Assembly (NCBI RefSeq): GCF_001468085.1 | Contig: NZ_LNZB01000015.1 | Span: 1 to 64,000 of the forward strand | Direction: 5' to 3' | DNA length: 64,000 nucleotides | Source: Legionella waltersii | Lineage (GTDB): Bacteria > Pseudomonadota > Gammaproteobacteria > Legionellales > Legionellaceae | Shown: in pieces, positions 3,136-32,948 of the stretch | How the letters are laid out: each line of letters begins with the position of its first letter | Numbering within the stretch: position 1 is the first letter of the stretch | Made by a program: the position numbers and the translations under genes | Notes under the pieces: model-generated | Seen by the model: only the letters and a program-made list of their open reading frames with translations | The model's database searches: none | Told to the model about the DNA's origin: nothing

Positions 3136-4158
3136 CTAATAACTAAGAGCCTTGGTGACGCTTAGGCTAGGTATTGCTTGAGATATATCTAGACCAAAAT
3201 GCCTAAATAGTTCCTCTCTGTTTTCAAAAAATTGATTTCCTACGATTCCGAGATTTGAATTTCGATTAGTCCCTAAAACTTGGCCATCTTGAAAGAGAGT
3301 GATTTCTCTTGATTGGCCAGTGGAGTTTCTACCAAAAATTGTATATGAGTTGTCCTTATTTTGACGAATTCCATCTGCATAATTATTACCTTTTGGATCT
3401 AAAATAACATAAGGTTTATAGGTGATCGCCACAGGAATTTCTTTTTCTGCTAATACAGGTATTTCACGCACATGGCTGCCATAAATTTTTGCACAATGAT
3501 CTCGAAGTTCTCTAGGAATCGAATCAGCCAACATCCCTAATACTTCGCTTATCCCATGAGGATCCATCATTTTTGTAAATGGTTTCGTGCCTTTATTCAA
3601 AACAATTAGAGGTTGATCCCAGGCTGCGTCCAATTCGACTTGATAATTTGGACTAGCTATAGCATATTTACCGCTAAAATTAGATGTGCCTTGCTCAATA
3701 CCGTTCTTTCCCCCCACTATGTAGTCCCAATATCCACGTACTCCAGGCCCTGTGCCGGGTGCGTATTCGCAAAACCTCGCTGAACGTACATAGGCAAGCA
3801 TAACTGCTTTTAATTGTTCGCCAGGAGATAAGTCGTCAGCGGAGCGTATTTCTTCTTGCACACTTGAATTCTTACCAAAAGTGGGTACTGATGAATAGAT
3901 TACTTCTGCACATTGAGATAATAGAATGGATTTAATTGCACCAATCGCTTTAAAGCATTCAGTCGCTTCTTCTAGGCTTAGTGGTGGTTTTACAGTAGAA
4001 GTTGAAATTTTATCTGGATGATACATGATGGCCGTTGTGTGATAGGCAGTAGTTATTTGTTCTATTGTGGGCGAATGAGTATTAAGTCCCAATATCTTAT
4101 AGTAATCGCCATTAAAAGGAGGGGCTTGGAAGCGTCCTGGTAGTATAAGCGTTGGCAT
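3136..4158 (-). CDS. J-domain protein, candidate effector
   Basis: This 340-aa protein has an N-terminal J domain at about residues 17-85, containing DYYKILGL and the essential HPD tripeptide (residues 47-49, in YHPDKI). J domains stimulate Hsp70 ATPases. It lacks the Gly/Phe and zinc-finger regions of DnaJ, and the remaining 250 residues match no co-chaperone I know. The J domain is longer than usual because of an insert before its third helix. It has no signal peptide and sits alone, with a good ribosome-binding site (AGGAGAG) before the ATG. A lone J domain on a unique body, in a Legionella-like genome, suggests a secreted protein that recruits host or bacterial Hsp70; that role is inference. 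Confidence 0.75.
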   Translation of the reverse strand: MPTLILPGRFQAPPFNGDYYKILGLNTHSPTIEQITTAYHTTAIMYHPDKISTSTVKPPLSLEEATECFKAIGAIKSILLSQCAEVIYSSVPTFGKNSSVQEEIRSADDLSPGEQLKAVMLAYVRSARFCEYAPGTGPGVRGYWDYIVGGKNGIEQGTSNFSGKYAIASPNYQVELDAAWDQPLIVLNKGTKPFTKMMDPHGISEVLGMLADSIPRELRDHCAKIYGSHVREIPVLAEKEIPVAITYKPYVILDPKGNNYADGIRQNKDNSYTIFGRNSTGQSREITLFQDGQVLGTNRNSNLGIVGNQFFENREELFRHFGLDISQAIPSLSVTKALSY

Positions 4159-23759: not shown

Positions 23760-24191
23760 TTAATGATTGCAATCAGAGCACAGCCCTTTAATTTCTAAAG
23801 TGCAGTTTAAAATTGAAAATTGAATGTTATTTGCAGCCTCAGTTACCGAAGTTAAATCAACCATGCACTCTAATTCTTTCACAAAATCACAGTTGTTGCA
23901 GATGAGAAACTGGGCTTGTCCCATATGATGTCCATGCAAACAGGCGACATACGATTTTAAACTGTCGATGCAATGAATGAATCCCTCTTGATGCCAAAAC
24001 TGAATAGCACGATAGACCGTAGGTGGTTTAGGATTGTCAACTTCGTAGGATAATCGGTGTAATATATCATAAGCCCCAAGAGGCTTTCTCTCAGCTATTA
24101 ATATTTTGAGGACGCGCTCTCTTGGCTCTGTAAATCGATAACCATGGCTGATGCAATGCTGATACGCCCTATCCAACAAATTATGTTTCAT
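23760..24191 (-). CDS. zur: Zinc uptake regulator (Fur family)
   Basis: This 143-aa winged-helix repressor of the Fur family has a DNA-binding helix region YRFTEPRERVLKIL, PPTVYRAIQFW as the recognition helix, and then the metal-sensing domain with HGHHMGQAQFLIC. Two CxxC pairs, CNNC and CSDC, form the structural zinc site. The lack of the HHDH pattern of Fur and the weak C-terminus match Zur. It is divergent from a metal P-type ATPase whose promoter has a Zur-box core, which strongly supports zinc rather than iron sensing. The expected action is repression when zinc is replete. AAGG precedes the ATG. Confidence 0.85.
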   Translation of the reverse strand: MKHNLLDRAYQHCISHGYRFTEPRERVLKILIAERKPLGAYDILHRLSYEVDNPKPPTVYRAIQFWHQEGFIHCIDSLKSYVACLHGHHMGQAQFLICNNCDFVKELECMVDLTSVTEAANNIQFSILNCTLEIKGLCSDCNH

Positions 24192-24324: not shown

Positions 24325-24352
24325 TTGCCCTTCAATAATCATGCGTTATATT
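24325..24352 (+). promoter_or_regulatory. Likely sigma-70 promoter of the P-type ATPase gene
   Basis: TTGCCC (24325-24330), 16 bases, then TATATT (24347-24352) give a plausible -35/-10 pair about 85 bases upstream of the ATG. The -10 element lies inside the Zur palindrome, so Zur binding would block it. Confidence 0.45.
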
Positions 24353-24357
24353 ATAAC
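24345..24357. promoter_or_regulatory. Zur operator (perfect palindrome)
   Basis: GTTATATTATAAC is a perfect 6-1-6 palindrome and equals the core GTTATA-N-TATAAC of the gammaproteobacterial Zur box. It lies between zur and the ATPase gene, 83 bases before the latter's ATG and overlapping a likely -10 element. Bases outside the core (TGC / ACT) match the extended consensus less well. Confidence 0.8.
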
Positions 24358-24439
24358 ACTTTATTTTATTTACCAGAAGTTTCAAAACATACTTTGCCCT
24401 CTCTGCAGCATTTGTATCATCATTAAATAGAGGTATCCA

Positions 24440-26770
24440 ATGAGTTATACTAAGTCTCAAACCCAATTATCAGAAGATGCCAAGCCCCATTCAACTATAA
24501 AAAAGCAGAATAAAAGCAAAAAAAAATCCCATTCCCATAAGCACCCTCATCAACATGAGCACAGTCACAATCATGATCATCAACCTCATCATGGACATAG
24601 TCATGATCACGAACATGATGAAAATCATTGGATTAAAGCAGCCTTAGGTGTTCTATGGGGAGTCGCTTTGATCGTTCTTTCTATTGCGAGTTTTAATCTC
24701 CCTCTTATCGCCTATATTGTCATAACAGGACTTACTGCTTTGATGACATTCTATTTAGGAAGTACTGTATATAAATCAGCCTGGGAGGCATTAAAAGAAA
24801 AAACCTGGGACACCTCAACATTGTATGCGATAAGCACGCTAACCATTGTTGGGGTTTCTATTCTTAGTTTGTTTGTTCCTGGTTTGCCCATGATGTTTGA
24901 AGCGGCGCCTCTGGTGTTAGGCTTTTGGCATTTAGGGGAAGGAATTGAGCATACCTTAATTGGTAAAATCAATAAAAAATTGGATGTACGTGATTGTGTA
25001 CCTCCCCTAGCCATGAGAAAAGGGAATCCGAATAAAGAAGTTTCTGTCAAAAAACTGATTCCTGACGATATTATTATCATCAAAACGGGAGATGTTATTC
25101 CTGTCGATGGAGTGTTAACTCAACAAGGCCAGCTGTATACTACACGAATCGATGGTTCCCCTGAACTTAAAGTATTTAAACCCGGTGATGCCGTAAAATC
25201 AGGGATGCGTTTAGCGGATCATCTTCCCTCATTGGAAATGCGGGTTACAAAGACTTATGAACACTCTTACCTCTCCGTAATAGCAAAAAACATCAATAAA
25301 GCACATGATGAAAAAGCGCCAATTGAAGAGTTTGCCGATAGAGTATTGAAGTATTTTATTCCCGGTTTACTCGCTGTAGCCCTGATATCAGGAATTGTCA
25401 TCGCTTCGGTCTTTAGTCCAGCACTTGCCATTCAATGCGTTATATCTGTTCTTGTTAGTGCCTGTCCCTGTGCTTTGAGCTTGATAACACCCATGGCCGT
25501 TAAGATCGGTATGAAAAAGGCAGCTGAACATGGAATTCAATTTAATAATGGAAAGGCATTACAAGCCGCTGCAGATATCGATACTGTTGTTTTTGATTTA
25601 AACGGGACCCTTACTAAAGGAACTATTTCAGTTCAAAAAGTTCAGATTGCAAATAAACAGTTTTTGAGTCAGGTTGCACTATTAGAGAGCCAATCAGAAC
25701 ACCCAGTAGCAAAAATAATTAAAACCTATATCGATGAGCATGGCATAGCTGCCAGTGAGCGTTCCGATTTAACTTCTGTTGATAAAAGTCATCACTCAGG
25801 CATAAAAGGGGCTATTAAGGGTGAAACATTCATCATCGGCACAAAAGATATGCTTTTAGCAAATAACATCAACTTCATCGATGAACCCTATAATAACCCT
25901 GATAACGGTTCCATATATATCGTGCGTGGCTCAGCTGTCATTGGACAAATTGCCTTAATGGATCCTTTGCGTGACGATGCTGTTGCAACAGTGAACCAAT
26001 TAAAGCGTCTTGGTAAAACAGTACATCTATGCACGGGAGCAGATCATGTAACGGCTGAGAAATATGCTGCCTTATTAGGTATTGCAAAAGAAAATATTGC
26101 TGCAAATGCAGTAGGTGCTGAAACCCAATCCGGCGAAATTTCTAAAACAAGTTACATCCAGGAGTTACGGCGCAAAGGGTATAAAGTGGCTATGGTTGGT
26201 GACGCGGCCAACGATGTTACCGCCATTGCCTATTCGGATATTGGGATTGCTGTTAAATCAAGTATTGGCGATGAGGTTACTGAGCAACATGCAGGGATAG
26301 TCGTGCAACAAGGTTTGTTATTTCCTATTGCAACAGCATTTGATGTCGCAAAAAAAACCAAAAGCAATATTTTCCAGAATTTATTTATAAGCTTAACCTA
26401 TAATACAGTGATTACATTAGTAGCTGCAGGAATATTTGTTGCCCTCGGTTTTGCCCTTAATCCTGCCCTTGGCGTTGCCTTGATGGTGCTTGAATCTACC
26501 ATTGTTTTAGCCAATTTATACCGTTTTAAACAAGAGGAAATTGTTTCTGCAGCATCAGGCGATAAAGAGATAAAAGAAGAGAACGATGTCAGTGCCTTTT
26601 CAAAACTGTTTGATGATCTGGGCTTCCATGCACAACCTCAGGCAAGTTTAACAAGGGCACCAGAACCTGAACCAGTGAATCCAAAAACTGAAACTTTATT
26701 TGCTCCTGTGAATTCTCCTAGCCTCCAACACACAAAAGAGGTAACTGGTTCACAACTTCTTTTCAGGTAA
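24440..26770 (+). CDS. His-rich P1B-type metal ATPase with altered catalytic motifs
   Basis: This 776-aa inner-membrane ion pump has an N-terminal segment (about residues 30-65) with roughly twenty His in HxH patterns, a likely Zn/Ni/Co-binding arm. About eight helices follow, including the transport motif CPC (Cys342-Pro-Cys344). Catalytic motifs are modified: the invariant DKTGT is DLNGT (Asp386), the actuator TGES is DGSPE, and GDGxND is GDAAND; HP (SEHPVAKI) is kept. The C-terminal 70 residues form a polar tail. The Zur-box promoter links it to zinc. Phosphorylatable Asp remains, so it may still work; exporter direction is the family norm, yet Zur control would suit zinc supply. Metal and direction are open. 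Confidence 0.85.
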   Translation: MSYTKSQTQLSEDAKPHSTIKKQNKSKKKSHSHKHPHQHEHSHNHDHQPHHGHSHDHEHDENHWIKAALGVLWGVALIVLSIASFNLPLIAYIVITGLTALMTFYLGSTVYKSAWEALKEKTWDTSTLYAISTLTIVGVSILSLFVPGLPMMFEAAPLVLGFWHLGEGIEHTLIGKINKKLDVRDCVPPLAMRKGNPNKEVSVKKLIPDDIIIIKTGDVIPVDGVLTQQGQLYTTRIDGSPELKVFKPGDAVKSGMRLADHLPSLEMRVTKTYEHSYLSVIAKNINKAHDEKAPIEEFADRVLKYFIPGLLAVALISGIVIASVFSPALAIQCVISVLVSACPCALSLITPMAVKIGMKKAAEHGIQFNNGKALQAAADIDTVVFDLNGTLTKGTISVQKVQIANKQFLSQVALLESQSEHPVAKIIKTYIDEHGIAASERSDLTSVDKSHHSGIKGAIKGETFIIGTKDMLLANNINFIDEPYNNPDNGSIYIVRGSAVIGQIALMDPLRDDAVATVNQLKRLGKTVHLCTGADHVTAEKYAALLGIAKENIAANAVGAETQSGEISKTSYIQELRRKGYKVAMVGDAANDVTAIAYSDIGIAVKSSIGDEVTEQHAGIVVQQGLLFPIATAFDVAKKTKSNIFQNLFISLTYNTVITLVAAGIFVALGFALNPALGVALMVLESTIVLANLYRFKQEEIVSAASGDKEIKEENDVSAFSKLFDDLGFHAQPQASLTRAPEPEPVNPKTETLFAPVNSPSLQHTKEVTGSQLLFR

Positions 26771-28945: not shown

Positions 28946-30376
28946 TTATTTACTGCGTTGTTTAAAGTCACTTGGTCCGTGAGTTGACGCGAAATAGCGG
29001 GCTCTAGCCTTTAATTCCTCTAATTGGACTTGAGCATGCAGGGTGTTAAGTTGCACTTGGGTGGTCATTTGCTCACGTTGATTAACCAAAAATAAAGTAC
29101 TGTCGCCTTGATAAAACTTTTTTGTTTCGCCTTGCTGCACCTTTTGGGCCAAACGTAATTCTTTTTTTAACAAGCCTACTTGTTGTCGACTTCTCTTGAT
29201 GCCAATCAGCATGTTTGTGAATTCATTGTTAAGTTGCTCGTACAAAAATCGCGTCTCAACACGAACTTGACGTAACTCGCTTTCTGCCTGGATTAGATTA
29301 CCTTTAGCTTGTCTTTGCAACAAAGGAAATTTAAATGAAACACCGACCATGGCTGCTTGTGGAATTAATAAGGGGTAGCCACCTGTTCCATTTTGTTTAA
29401 ACGTGTAAGCGGTTGCATCTAACTGCGGTAGTAGTTCATTACGGGCCTGATTGCGTTTGAGCTTCATCATATTGGCGTAATGGTTAAGCTTTTTAATCCC
29501 AGGGTGTTCTCTGACTGACAGTTGGATTCCTGCAATCTTATTTGAGGCGCTGGTTAGAGAAGGCAAGGATTGTTCTACTGGAACCAGCGGCTTGCCCTTG
29601 GGGTCGCGAAAATAAAGCGATAAATTAACCCCGGCTTGCTCAAATATCATTCGACCTTGATTGAGTAATTGTTGTCGTTGAATGATTTGTTGTAAATTTT
29701 CACTGATCGCAAGTTTTGGCAAATCGCCAAGATTCGCCTGTTTTTCAATGGCGTTTTGACGTTCTTCGGCCAGGCTCAGGAGTTGTTTAAAGGTGTTTAA
29801 TTGCAGCCCTGCTTCTACCCATTGCCAATAGGCTTTAATTGCTTCTTGGTAAATTTTTATTTTGATTGCCTCAGCATCTTGTTCCTTCATGAGCATTAAT
29901 TGAGAAGAAGACAATAATCCTGTTCGCTCTTTATCAATTAAGCGATCGCGAAGTAAGGGAAGGGATAATCCGGCTCGATATTCCCCACCGGAGTTTGTTA
30001 AATAGTTTTGATAGTAAATGGGCCAGTTACCCTCGCCATTGCGATAGCCGGCAAAAAGCTTCACGCCATTATAAAGCGTTGGAATAGTAAGTTGCGTATC
30101 GCCGTAATTATTAATATAACCACCGGCGGGTTGTGAGCGAGTAGTGGCCTCTAATGATGGGTCAAACTGCCCTTTTGCATTGACAAAAGCGCCACTGGCT
30201 TTGATCACTTCAAGGCGTGCTATTTTCACTTGAGGGTAATGAGCGTCGATGCTTTGCAGTACCTTCATCAAGCTTAATTTTTGTGTTTTTGGGGTTGCAT
30301 GGGAGTTTGAATACCCCAATAAGGCATTTAGTCCGATAAGTAGAATGACTAACCCATGTAGCTTTTCCATCCTCAT
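28946..30376 (-). CDS. TolC-family outer-membrane efflux channel
   Basis: This 476-aa protein has a signal peptide (residues 3-28, ending SHA). Two repeated coiled-coil/strand halves typical of OEP/TolC proteins follow; heptad-rich helices are near 180-240 and 360-450. The start overlaps the HlyD gene stop (ATGA). It is the last gene of a LysR-ABC-HlyD-TolC operon, so it should form the outer-membrane exit of that system. Sequence around LPLLRDRLIDKERTGLL resembles channels found with type I-like exporters. The cargo is unknown. Confidence 0.85.
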   Translation of the reverse strand: MRMEKLHGLVILLIGLNALLGYSNSHATPKTQKLSLMKVLQSIDAHYPQVKIARLEVIKASGAFVNAKGQFDPSLEATTRSQPAGGYINNYGDTQLTIPTLYNGVKLFAGYRNGEGNWPIYYQNYLTNSGGEYRAGLSLPLLRDRLIDKERTGLLSSSQLMLMKEQDAEAIKIKIYQEAIKAYWQWVEAGLQLNTFKQLLSLAEERQNAIEKQANLGDLPKLAISENLQQIIQRQQLLNQGRMIFEQAGVNLSLYFRDPKGKPLVPVEQSLPSLTSASNKIAGIQLSVREHPGIKKLNHYANMMKLKRNQARNELLPQLDATAYTFKQNGTGGYPLLIPQAAMVGVSFKFPLLQRQAKGNLIQAESELRQVRVETRFLYEQLNNEFTNMLIGIKRSRQQVGLLKKELRLAQKVQQGETKKFYQGDSTLFLVNQREQMTTQVQLNTLHAQVQLEELKARARYFASTHGPSDFKQRSK

Positions 30377-31359
30377 GAGCTCGCCTTTTCTGCTAAGCTT
30401 TCCGGCGGAAAGCCATTAAACTGACGCCATAATTCATACCATAAGGGCACTTCCCCTAATTGTACCCAACCATGTACACGCACTCCCTGTCTTAAAAAAG
30501 CAGGCTCAGGCCAGGGCTCATCAGGGACAATCACCGCACGAAACATCCCCATGCCGTTATCGGTGGGATCAATAAAAGCCACTTTTCCACCAAAGGTCCC
30601 TACGGCGATTTGCGGCCAACCCCTAAATTGAATGGCGGGCCATCCTTCAAATTGAAGGCGCGCTTTTTGATTGAGATGAACAAATGGAATGTCATTGCCA
30701 TCAATCCAAAGCGCTACCGCTCTTGATTCGGTTACAGGTATAATCTCCGCTAAAATCTCCCCCTCTTTAACCACCACGCTTTCTTGTCCGGCCAGGCGCT
30801 TAAAGATGATTCCTGGGACATGTGCTTTGATGAGCTGGGTCTGCTGTCTTGCGATGCGAACATCAATGCTGACCTTATCAATATTGGCTTGTGCTAATTC
30901 ATTTTGGTATTTGGCGTATTCAATTTGAGCCAATTCGTATTGACGTTTTGAGTTGATGCCTTGTTCGTATAAGTTTTTTTGTCGTTCTACATTGGCTTTT
31001 CCGGCGGTTAGTGATTGTTGTGCCGCTTCGATACGAAGCATAATGGCTTTCTTTTCCAGCTCCAATCGTTTGAGTAAGTCAGGGTCATTGTCGGTAATCT
31101 CTACGATAGGATCGCCTGCCTTGACACGCATCCCTTCATCAACATACCACTTTTTAATTCTGCCATAAATGGGTGAATTCACGGTATGCAATCGCTCAGT
31201 GGGTGAAAACGCAATCACTTTCCCACTCCCCAAGGCAAATTGTTGCCAAGGGGTAAAACACAAAAACACAATTAAAACCAAGAGTACTAAAAAAATAATC
31301 TTAGCAATTTTGCGCGGATTGGGTAATTTGCCAATCATTTGATAGGCGTGTAGCTTCAT
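30373..31359 (-). CDS. HlyD-family membrane fusion protein
   Basis: This 328-aa periplasmic adaptor has a single membrane helix at about residues 20-40 (IIFLVLLVLIVFLCF). A lipoyl/barrel-sandwich half-motif (YGRIKKWYVDEGMRVKAGDPIVEI) is followed by an alpha-hairpin (80-160) and the second lipoyl half (VPGIIFKRLAGQESVVVKEGEIL). It overlaps the genes on both sides by 4 bases, so translation is coupled. It should bridge the inner-membrane ABC protein to the TolC-like channel. It is shorter than classical HlyD (about 480 aa) because the hairpin is short. Confidence 0.87.
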   Translation of the reverse strand: MKLHAYQMIGKLPNPRKIAKIIFLVLLVLIVFLCFTPWQQFALGSGKVIAFSPTERLHTVNSPIYGRIKKWYVDEGMRVKAGDPIVEITDNDPDLLKRLELEKKAIMLRIEAAQQSLTAGKANVERQKNLYEQGINSKRQYELAQIEYAKYQNELAQANIDKVSIDVRIARQQTQLIKAHVPGIIFKRLAGQESVVVKEGEILAEIIPVTESRAVALWIDGNDIPFVHLNQKARLQFEGWPAIQFRGWPQIAVGTFGGKVAFIDPTDNGMGMFRAVIVPDEPWPEPAFLRQGVRVHGWVQLGEVPLWYELWRQFNGFPPESLAEKASS

Positions 31360-32948
31360 GAGAGCACCAAACAGTTAGACAGTGGAATGAAATTTGGATA
31401 TTGAGTAATTACAATCAAAAGAGTCTCTTTGAGTGTTGCTAAATGGCCGAGCAGCAATTCGATGTCCTTTGTAGTCAATCGATCAAAGACGCGATCGATA
31501 ATAATGAGCTGGGGTTTTGCAAGTATCGCACGAACCACCATGAGTTGAAGCAGCTCAAGCTCAGTAAACACCTGCTCCCAATCATAAATAATGCTTTTTA
31601 AGCCATTAGGTTGGCTCATTATTTTATCCATCAGCCCTAAAGATTTTAAAAGCTCTTTTAATTGTTGTATTGAAAAAGACGGTTGATTGAGGCGTAAATT
31701 GTCATAAATGCTGCCGGCAAACCATTCTTTATCTCTAAGTAACAGGGTGTGGTCACGAAGGCAGCGCCTGTATTGATCATGACAGAGGGTCTCGTTGATA
31801 TACACTGTGAGGTCAGTATTGTTTTTAAAACCCAAAATAAAATCGGTCAATGACTCTTGTTTTTGGGTTTCATTCACGCAAATAACGAGCGGATTTTCTG
31901 GACTTCCCGATGCTTTTTCTTGATTTTCAGTGACTAGCGTGATGCTTTTTATGGGAATAATCAGTTCGCTTAGCTCAGTATTAATCGGTTCCGTTGGGAG
32001 ATTTAATACCACGTCAATTTTATGCTCGGAAGCCACTAAATCGTAATAATTTTCCAAAAGAACAACAAAACGTTTAAACGCATAGATTAATGCACCAAGC
32101 ACAATCTCTGCCGCAACGAGCTGACCTAAACTTAATTGGTTGTTAATCACGAGATAACCCCCTAAGCCGAGTAAGAGGCTACTGGCGATTGCTGAGAGGA
32201 GATAAAAACCAATCTGATGTTTAATAAGTTGTTTAAAATGCATGTTGCGCGCTTTTAAAAAGGAAACCAAACGCTTGTCCGTTTGCTGAGTCGCATAGTG
32301 ATGATAACGATTAAAGCGAAATAAAAAACGACTGGTCAGCAGCTCTTCTAGCCAAGCACCTATTTGATGCTTTTCAGCGCATTCGTTTTCAGCACTTTCG
32401 AGGCCCTTACGGTAAGGCAGAAAAACAATCAAAAGTAGACTTAATACAATAAATCCATCAAATACAAGAAAGAGAGGATGATAAAAAAGAAGCAAGAGTA
32501 AACCAAAAAGGAGCTGCAAACTTAAGTTTACGCCATAGAGCAATAGACTTGATAGCGCTTTTTTGATGGTCACCACTTCGAAAAAACGATTAACGAGCTC
32601 TGGGCCATGATGTGAGGAGAAGTTATCTAGAGATAAATGAGTAAATTGACGGGTTAAATTAAGACTTATTCTCACCATTAATTTTTGTTGAATCACTTCA
32701 ATGATAATGGCTTGCCAAACATTTAAAGCTCCTAGAGCAATCATTAATACAAGCACCATGATGCTTAGGGTTAACACAGGTTGTAGTAATTTACCAAAGG
32801 CAATCAAATTCACTAAGGTTTGGGCAGCTATAGGAATACTTAAGGTAAGTAGGCTCACGATGACGCTTATCATGACGATTGAAGCGATGGTGGCCTTATC
32901 CAGAACCTCAACAATTGAATTCATTTCTTGTCTCATCATAAGACTCAT
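31356..32948 (-). CDS. ABC transporter with degenerate ATPase domain
   Basis: This 530-aa protein has an N-terminal six-helix type-1 exporter membrane domain (20-300) of the HlyB/PrtD type, without a peptidase domain. A C-terminal nucleotide-binding fold follows that lacks every catalytic motif. Walker A GxxGxGKS reads NETQKQES (residues 359-366, Lys replaced by Glu365); the signature LSGGQ is FTELE; Walker B LIIIDR has Arg486 where Glu is needed; the H-loop His is Gln516. The fold is still readable, for example WFAGSIYDNLRL after the Q-loop position. The ORF is intact, so loss of ATPase activity seems tolerated or selected. It may pair with another ABC protein, use another energy source, or have a structural role. 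Confidence 0.8.
   Translation of the reverse strand: MSLMMRQEMNSIVEVLDKATIASIVMISVIVSLLTLSIPIAAQTLVNLIAFGKLLQPVLTLSIMVLVLMIALGALNVWQAIIIEVIQQKLMVRISLNLTRQFTHLSLDNFSSHHGPELVNRFFEVVTIKKALSSLLLYGVNLSLQLLFGLLLLLFYHPLFLVFDGFIVLSLLLIVFLPYRKGLESAENECAEKHQIGAWLEELLTSRFLFRFNRYHHYATQQTDKRLVSFLKARNMHFKQLIKHQIGFYLLSAIASSLLLGLGGYLVINNQLSLGQLVAAEIVLGALIYAFKRFVVLLENYYDLVASEHKIDVVLNLPTEPINTELSELIIPIKSITLVTENQEKASGSPENPLVICVNETQKQESLTDFILGFKNNTDLTVYINETLCHDQYRRCLRDHTLLLRDKEWFAGSIYDNLRLNQPSFSIQQLKELLKSLGLMDKIMSQPNGLKSIIYDWEQVFTELELLQLMVVRAILAKPQLIIIDRVFDRLTTKDIELLLGHLATLKETLLIVITQYPNFIPLSNCLVLS

Follow-up and report, generated by a model that had tools for sequence, protein, structure and literature searches.

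Zinc uptake under the control of the repressor Zur is usually the work of ZnuABC, an ABC transporter. A P-type ATPase has been placed in a similar role: HmtA (PA2435) of Pseudomonas aeruginosa, an organism that also has ZnuABC (PMC8456098), is presented in the available parts of two reports as acting in zinc uptake and as tied to Zur (PMC8456098, PMC8531726), and one of them describes zinc-loaded Zur repressing uptake genes from boxes that overlap the -10 element (PMC8531726). In Francisella, according to the excerpted text of a further report, the Zur-controlled uptake gene is zupT, a parallel outside the Znu systems (PMC5786701). For the P1B pumps, the accessible sections of one study give DKTGT as invariant, with its Asp phosphorylated, and TGE as omnipresent and responsible for dephosphorylation (PMC10973460). 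Here we describe a locus in Legionella waltersii, within the first 64,000 nucleotides of contig NZ_LNZB01000015.1 (hereafter the window), where a zur-like gene stands divergent from a P1B-like P-type ATPase (pump A) in which both motifs are rewritten. The rewriting is fixed across the genus, a Zur box accompanies the pump, and we tentatively read the protein as a route for zinc into the cell.

The pump gene (24440-26770, plus strand) is an open reading frame of 776 codons. Pfam finds in its product an actuator domain (PF00122, 114 bits) and a HAD-type phosphorylation domain (PF00702, 85 bits), and the general P-type ATPase model TIGR01494 of NCBIfam scores 153.2 against a cut-off of 62.3. Its best NCBIfam matches are heavy-metal P-type ATPases, although it narrowly misses the P1B model TIGR01525 (343.5 against 346.25) and reaches neither the P1B-1 copper model TIGR01511 (324.5 against 397) nor the P1B-2 zinc model TIGR01512 (236.2 against 313.5). 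The solved structures nearest to it by sequence are copper pumps (27-29% identity to 7r0g, 3rfu and 4bbj). An AlphaFold2 model (mean predicted local distance difference test score, pLDDT, 76.1; predicted template modelling score 0.72) confirms the P-type fold only; by our own assignment its membrane part has eight long helices, which would match the MA/MB arrangement expected of P1B pumps.

A preliminary description of the locus, made from the letters alone, had reported a His-rich pump that keeps the phosphorylated Asp and the CPC motif, with altered forms of DKTGT, TGES and GDGxND, and alignment bears this out. The CPC metal-binding motif of membrane helix M4 occupies residues 342-344 (25463-25471), and Asp386 is retained at the head of DLNGT, which replaces DKTGT (residues 386-390, 25595-25609). 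The A-domain loop carries DGSP in the columns of TGES (residues 238-241, 25151-25162), so that the catalytic Glu is absent, and GDAAND replaces GDGxND with both Asp and Asn retained (residues 587-592, 26198-26215). Two points go beyond that description: TGDN is altered as well, to TGAD (residues 532-535, 26033-26044), and the same genome encodes a paralogue with DLNGT and GDAGND. Alignment with this genome's four canonical P1B pumps shows DKTGT, TGE, TGD and GDGxND in each of them. The His-rich stretch covers about residues 30-62 (24527-24625; all of these features lie on the plus strand), with 16 His among the first 62 residues and pLDDT below 50 over residues 1-60. The N-terminal part of A orthologues holds 12-58 His (n=40). 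Since only 62 residues precede the first membrane helix in the window pump, against at least 108 in 34 of 40 A proteins, it is without an N-terminal part common to most orthologues.

Are these substitutions peculiar to one gene? A relative at E <= 1e-100 was found in 41 of 45 Legionella genomes searched. We assigned to group A sequences scoring above 600 bits in blastp against the window pump and to group B those scoring 400-600 bits, and counted motifs in 72 sequences, namely 40 A orthologues (window included) and 32 B paralogues; four duplicates were removed beforehand (L007, L008, L024 and L038, equal to L009, L070, L049 and L050), a partial B of 480 residues in genome G012 was left out, and the tree was built from no more than 16 A and 15 B rows. 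Asp386 is present in 72/72. The Lys of DKTGT has become Leu in 71 and Ile in one, its Thr is Asn throughout, Ala replaces the D of TGDN in 70 sequences and Ser replaces it in two, and the third residue of GDG is always Ala. In the column of the TGE glutamate we found Ser in all 40 A sequences and, in B, Ala in 27, Ser in three, Asp in one and Lys in one; Glu occurs in none. CPC is retained in 72/72 and the Pro of HP in 68/72. The ratio of nonsynonymous to synonymous substitution rates (dN/dS) was 0.13-0.26 in the 10 pairs tested, indicating purifying selection. A sequencing error was considered and rejected because the same changes appear in all 72 genus sequences, and with variations in further family members; a pseudogene is excluded by stop-free frames among the genus matches listed, together with these dN/dS values.

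Several membrane positions are conserved as well. Asn655, Glu685 and Glu170 are invariant in 40/40 A sequences, and Met682 is kept in 35, with Val in the other five. The signature of P1B-1 pumps is YN in M5 and M-x2-SS in M6; pump A retains the first (Tyr 39/40, Asn 40/40) and has Glu in 40/40 for the first Ser of the second. That residue, Glu685 (26492-26494), is Ser in the two CopA-like pumps aligned from this genome and Gln in 32/32 B sequences. In P1B-2 pumps of the ZntA kind the ligands are Lys in M5 and Asp in M6, where pump A has Asn and Glu; the two aligned ZntA-like pumps of the genome likewise have Lys in M5. Compared with the P1B-1 pumps of known structure (LpCopA, 3rfu; AfCopA, 7r0g), pump A differs in DKTGT, TGE, TGDN, GDGxND and the first Ser of M6, and an acidic residue at this place in M6 would suit a divalent ion.

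Upstream of the pump lies a perfect Zur core palindrome, GTTATATTATAAC, at 24345-24357, 82 bp from the start codon. It had been announced as lying beside zur and over the -10 element of the promoter. The first part stands, and the core is the sole match in the window at one mismatch or fewer (shuffles average 0.17, and 16/100 have one). The second stands in part. A possible sigma-70 promoter, TTGCCC-16-TATATT (24325-24352, plus strand), does have its -10 hexamer inside the core, but it is weak, and such pairs are hardly commoner in the window than in shuffles (4 against 2.0, standard deviation 1.5). In the whole 3.65-Mb genome the pattern GTTAYANTRTAAC occurs in one place only and a reversed control pattern in three; with 16/100 shuffles also holding a match, a chance box was not excludable from the window, and it is conservation that settled the matter. 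A box in a single genome would be weak evidence, and this one gains its significance from being conserved at this one locus. In the stretch from -400 to +60 relative to the called start, 39/40 A genes hold a match to GTTAYANTRTAAC without mismatch, and in 1/40 the closest match has one mismatch, so that a core accompanies all 40. By contrast, the best match in the 32 B upstream stretches has two mismatches in one, three in 19 and four in 12, with one or fewer in 0/32, and none of 19,849 stretches of 460 bases drawn at random from the window (a single genome, with overlap between draws) reaches one mismatch or fewer.

In some genomes the two genes have parted. In three (G013, G020, G023) zur lies far from the pump; the perfect core stays at the pump, and nothing near zur comes closer than 3-4 mismatches. 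The pump is therefore the likely Zur target. Because the core falls at +20 of the called pump start in these three genomes, translation probably begins further in. Another three (G006, G010, G025) have zur and the pump on one contig, but 1.4-1.9 kb separate zur from the core, and here too the core adjoins the pump. Control of pump A by Zur, which the preliminary description had proposed, is in our judgement well supported by these comparisons of sequence.

A wider Zur regulon was also looked for: 20 places with the core outside the pump locus (17 stretches) were examined. Among them, in G005, G033 and G025 (loci L150, L151 and L152), two extra Zur-like cores occur, one some 40 bp ahead of each member of a tandem pair of genes of about 900 codons, at positions 3661 and 6746 in L150, 3645 and 6721 in L151, and 3735 and 6814 in L152; the tandem gene scanned (L151, 3698-6484) encodes a protein-kinase-like domain. 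Three genus genomes (L156, L157, L159) share a Zur-like core where a glnE reading frame begins, an identification from a Pfam scan of L157 only. None of these further boxes recurs genus-wide.

The divergent neighbour (23760-24191, minus strand; 143 residues) had been taken for zur itself. Its membership of the Fur family is secure (PF01475 above cut-off) and among NCBIfam models NF008646 (Zur) scores highest, at 89.6 bits, short of its curated cut-off of 167 bits; we call it zur-like. Its product has CNNC at residues 98-101 and CSDC at 138-141; paired CxxC motifs form the structural zinc site of Zur. Within the genus 40/45 genomes have zur together with pump A, and five (G027, G029, G030, G036, G037) have neither, giving only a 27-29% Fur-family match. 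Across 143 genomes of the order, with cut-offs placed at gaps in the scores after the search, pump A occurs in 54 (at least 911 bits; next score 717) and zur in 49 (at least 167 bits; next score 83), all 49 of which have pump A. In the 34 A loci whose stretch includes zur, 67-260 bp (mostly 110-160 bp) separate the core from the start called for zur. Over 44 loci (39 A-type, 5 B-type; flanks of up to 6 kb) zur is a neighbour in 32 and the next shared family in 10. A remoter Zur-like protein (29-37% identity, 52-83 bits) was seen in many other genomes of the order, and six genomes have both kinds. In one metagenome-assembled genome (L128) the zur reading frame, 220 residues as called, has a His-rich stretch ahead of the usual start, which may be real or a miscalled start codon.

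What would a pump made under zinc starvation do? Repression by zinc excess had been called backwards for detoxification, and rightly so: the expected regulation of ZntA (P1B-2; 4umw) is the opposite, and export is covered in this genome by two ZntA-like (L003, L005) and two CopA-like (L001, L002) canonical pumps, which score 605-635 bits with TIGR01525, far above the P1B cut-off, although below the CopA and ZntA equivalog cut-offs. The genome has eight genes with E1-E2 domains, six with DKTGT and GDGxND, the other two being A and its B paralogue. On the side of uptake, an ABC-3 (ZnuB-type) permease was found in only 1/45 genus genomes and 5/143 in the order, in a search for the permease alone (not ZnuA or ZnuC) whose control was positive in 13/14 genomes. 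The ZIP-family gene of the L. waltersii genome has no Zur box: the best core upstream of it has four mismatches, and upstream of ZIP genes in eight others 2-4. ZnuABC, unrelated to pump A, would hold the same position in the regulatory circuit, and its permease family is absent from 44/45 Legionella genomes. Expected production only in starvation, a genus nearly without ZnuB and separate canonical exporters together argue for a role in uptake.

The reading we favour, though tentatively and with direction, metal and mechanism all inferred, is that pump A is an inner-membrane zinc uptake protein derived from a P1B-type exporter, repressed by Zur and with an altered ATP cycle. When zinc suffices, Zur would occupy the box and the promoter would be shut; in starvation Zur would lose its zinc and the pump would be produced. 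Zinc would reach the membrane site formed by CPC, Asn655, Met682 and Glu685 and be released to the cytosol, where the His-rich N-terminus could act as an acceptor or as a sensor for the gate. The usual ATP-driven export cycle is not expected, because the glutamate that drives hydrolysis of the phosphoenzyme is gone. Binding of ATP and Mg, and perhaps phosphate transfer to Asp386, may be retained as a gate or a slow cycle, and zinc may move down its own gradient into a zinc-poor, negatively charged cytosol. We prefer a gate or slow cycle to a full pump or a dead scaffold because the hydrolytic Glu is missing and the nucleotide, Mg and Asp386 positions are kept.

A bolder version, conceivable but doubtful, is that the Legionellaceae turned a P-type exporter into a zinc entry gate: the export cycle would have stopped with the loss of the TGE glutamate and the rewriting of DKTGT, TGDN and GDGxND, ATP or a long-lived aspartyl-phosphate would only gate a downhill path, Zur would turn the gene on when zinc is scarce, and the protein would replace ZnuABC in the genus. 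CFTR, a relative of ABC exporters turned gated channel with a degenerate ATPase site, belongs to another protein family and offers an analogy only, in that an altered exporter may let ions flow downhill.

Several points weigh against an uptake role under Zur. Zur binding, the metal, the direction and the ATPase state of pump A are all deduced from sequence. The core matches in 42/45 genus genomes, at zero to three places each, and is commoner than its reversed control in only 9/45. Five of the 54 A-bearing genomes of the order (G055, G079, G080, G087, G139) are without a high-scoring zur, one of which (G087) has a weak zur-like gene beside A, and three A-type loci outside the genus (L118, L119, L125) have neither box nor nearby zur; the counts of co-occurrence are, moreover, not independent, because the species share descent. 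Asp386, Lys569, the Asp and Asn of GDxxND, the His of HP and Asp508 are retained in 72/72, which would be odd in a plain channel. The AlphaFold2 model of pump A resembles the E1 structure 7r0g, but this carries no weight on mechanism, because AlphaFold models of two relatives are also nearer E1 in the part of the study available (PMC10973460). Lastly, a ZIP-family gene is present in 45/45 genus genomes, so pump A need not be the sole uptake route.

The same retained residues could serve an ATP-driven importer like HmtA, completing a full phosphorylation cycle with substitute residues and carrying zinc (or copper) inwards, an explanation that we regard as unlikely. Asp386, Lys569, the GDxxND Asp and Asn, the HP His and CPC, all in 72/72 with the HP Pro in 68, speak in its favour. 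The combination of Zur with P-type uptake has precedent, since HmtA is described, in the available text, as a P-type pump taking up zinc and copper and is listed as Zur-regulated (PMC8456098), and Zur gel-shifts the promoter of the hmtA operon (PMC8531726). Against it, the TGE glutamate is missing in 72/72 (with Asp at this position in a single B member), and the same source gives hmtA mRNA as low and unresponsive to zinc (PMC8531726). The likeness of pump A to HmtA is one of description, not of HmtA sequence. To our knowledge there is no report of altered catalytic motifs in HmtA.

Alternatively, pump A might transport nothing, its His-rich tail and CPC binding zinc as a reservoir or regulator. 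The 12-58 N-terminal His of the 40 A orthologues, the joint alteration of several catalytic motifs and zur as the only widely shared neighbour would fit such a pseudo-pump, and a regulatory role, already raised in the preliminary description, is possible. A scaffold, however, would hardly need CPC, Asn655, Glu685 and Glu170 invariant in 40/40 A sequences (Met682 in 35, Val in five). Zinc stores are normally produced in excess rather than in starvation, and production at a time of starvation suits a store poorly; we consider this explanation rather improbable.

An exporter supplying zinc to an envelope compartment during starvation, the role first suggested for this pump, seems decidedly unlikely. 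P1B ancestry points outwards, and the nearest structures and profiles are copper and zinc exporters. Yet it would be costly to export zinc from a starved cytosol, the changes include residues that normally power export, and apart from zur no neighbour recurs in more than 10 of the 44 loci. Uptake is the more economical proposal: DKTGT and TGE are altered, ZnuB-type permeases are nearly missing from the genus, and HmtA sets a precedent. That Zur acts on zur itself, the pump being a decaying passenger, can hardly be right: most species do have the box between the divergent zur and pump genes, but it remains with the pump rather than zur in the three unlinked genomes, which already contradicts this reading; dN/dS is 0.13-0.26, and the motifs are fixed rather than drifting.

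The rewritten core is not confined to pump A. B proteins are 38-45% identical to the window protein, and their loci show an N-terminal GMTCxSC consensus, Gln in M6, catalytic changes of the same kind as A and no Zur box within one mismatch. Remoter members of the family have DIHGTV and DVHGTL (L133 and L135), GDHIND (L121) and GDGAND (L136), so that the motifs go on varying around a constant nucleophilic Asp. Of 369 genomes drawn from the class, 214 gave a match at E <= 1e-70, most of them presumably ordinary pumps; of three examined outside the order, one (L172 in genome G307, 528 bits) has DLNGT and GDAKND and the two next in score (L174, 325 bits; L175, 324 bits) are canonical. In a draw of 398 genomes from the phylum, 150 match at E <= 1e-100 and only the L. 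waltersii genome exceeds 397 bits; the five outsiders examined (L181-L185) have DKTGT, TGE and GDGxND. Elsewhere in the window (28946-32948, minus strand), TolC-like, HlyD/RND adaptor-like and ABC permease and ATPase genes stand in a row, resembling a small type I export set.

The preliminary description had thought the combination undescribed, and within the limited literature library searched we found no account of a P-type ATPase whose catalytic core is rewritten and fixed in a pair of paralogues, with one member linked to zur genus-wide; the word Legionella is absent from the available text of a review of Zur regulons (PMC6103462). Most Legionella species examined have a pump with identically replaced motifs, usually adjoining zur, which probably helps zinc to enter the cell, not to leave it. 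Two paralogous P-type ATPases without DKTGT and TGE have been kept in one bacterial family under purifying selection, and they offer a natural case in which to ask what residues are indispensable to the P-type cycle, and if exporters can be converted into importers or channels. For Legionella, where the ZnuB-type permease is nearly absent, the finding may bear on how zinc is acquired when it is scarce.

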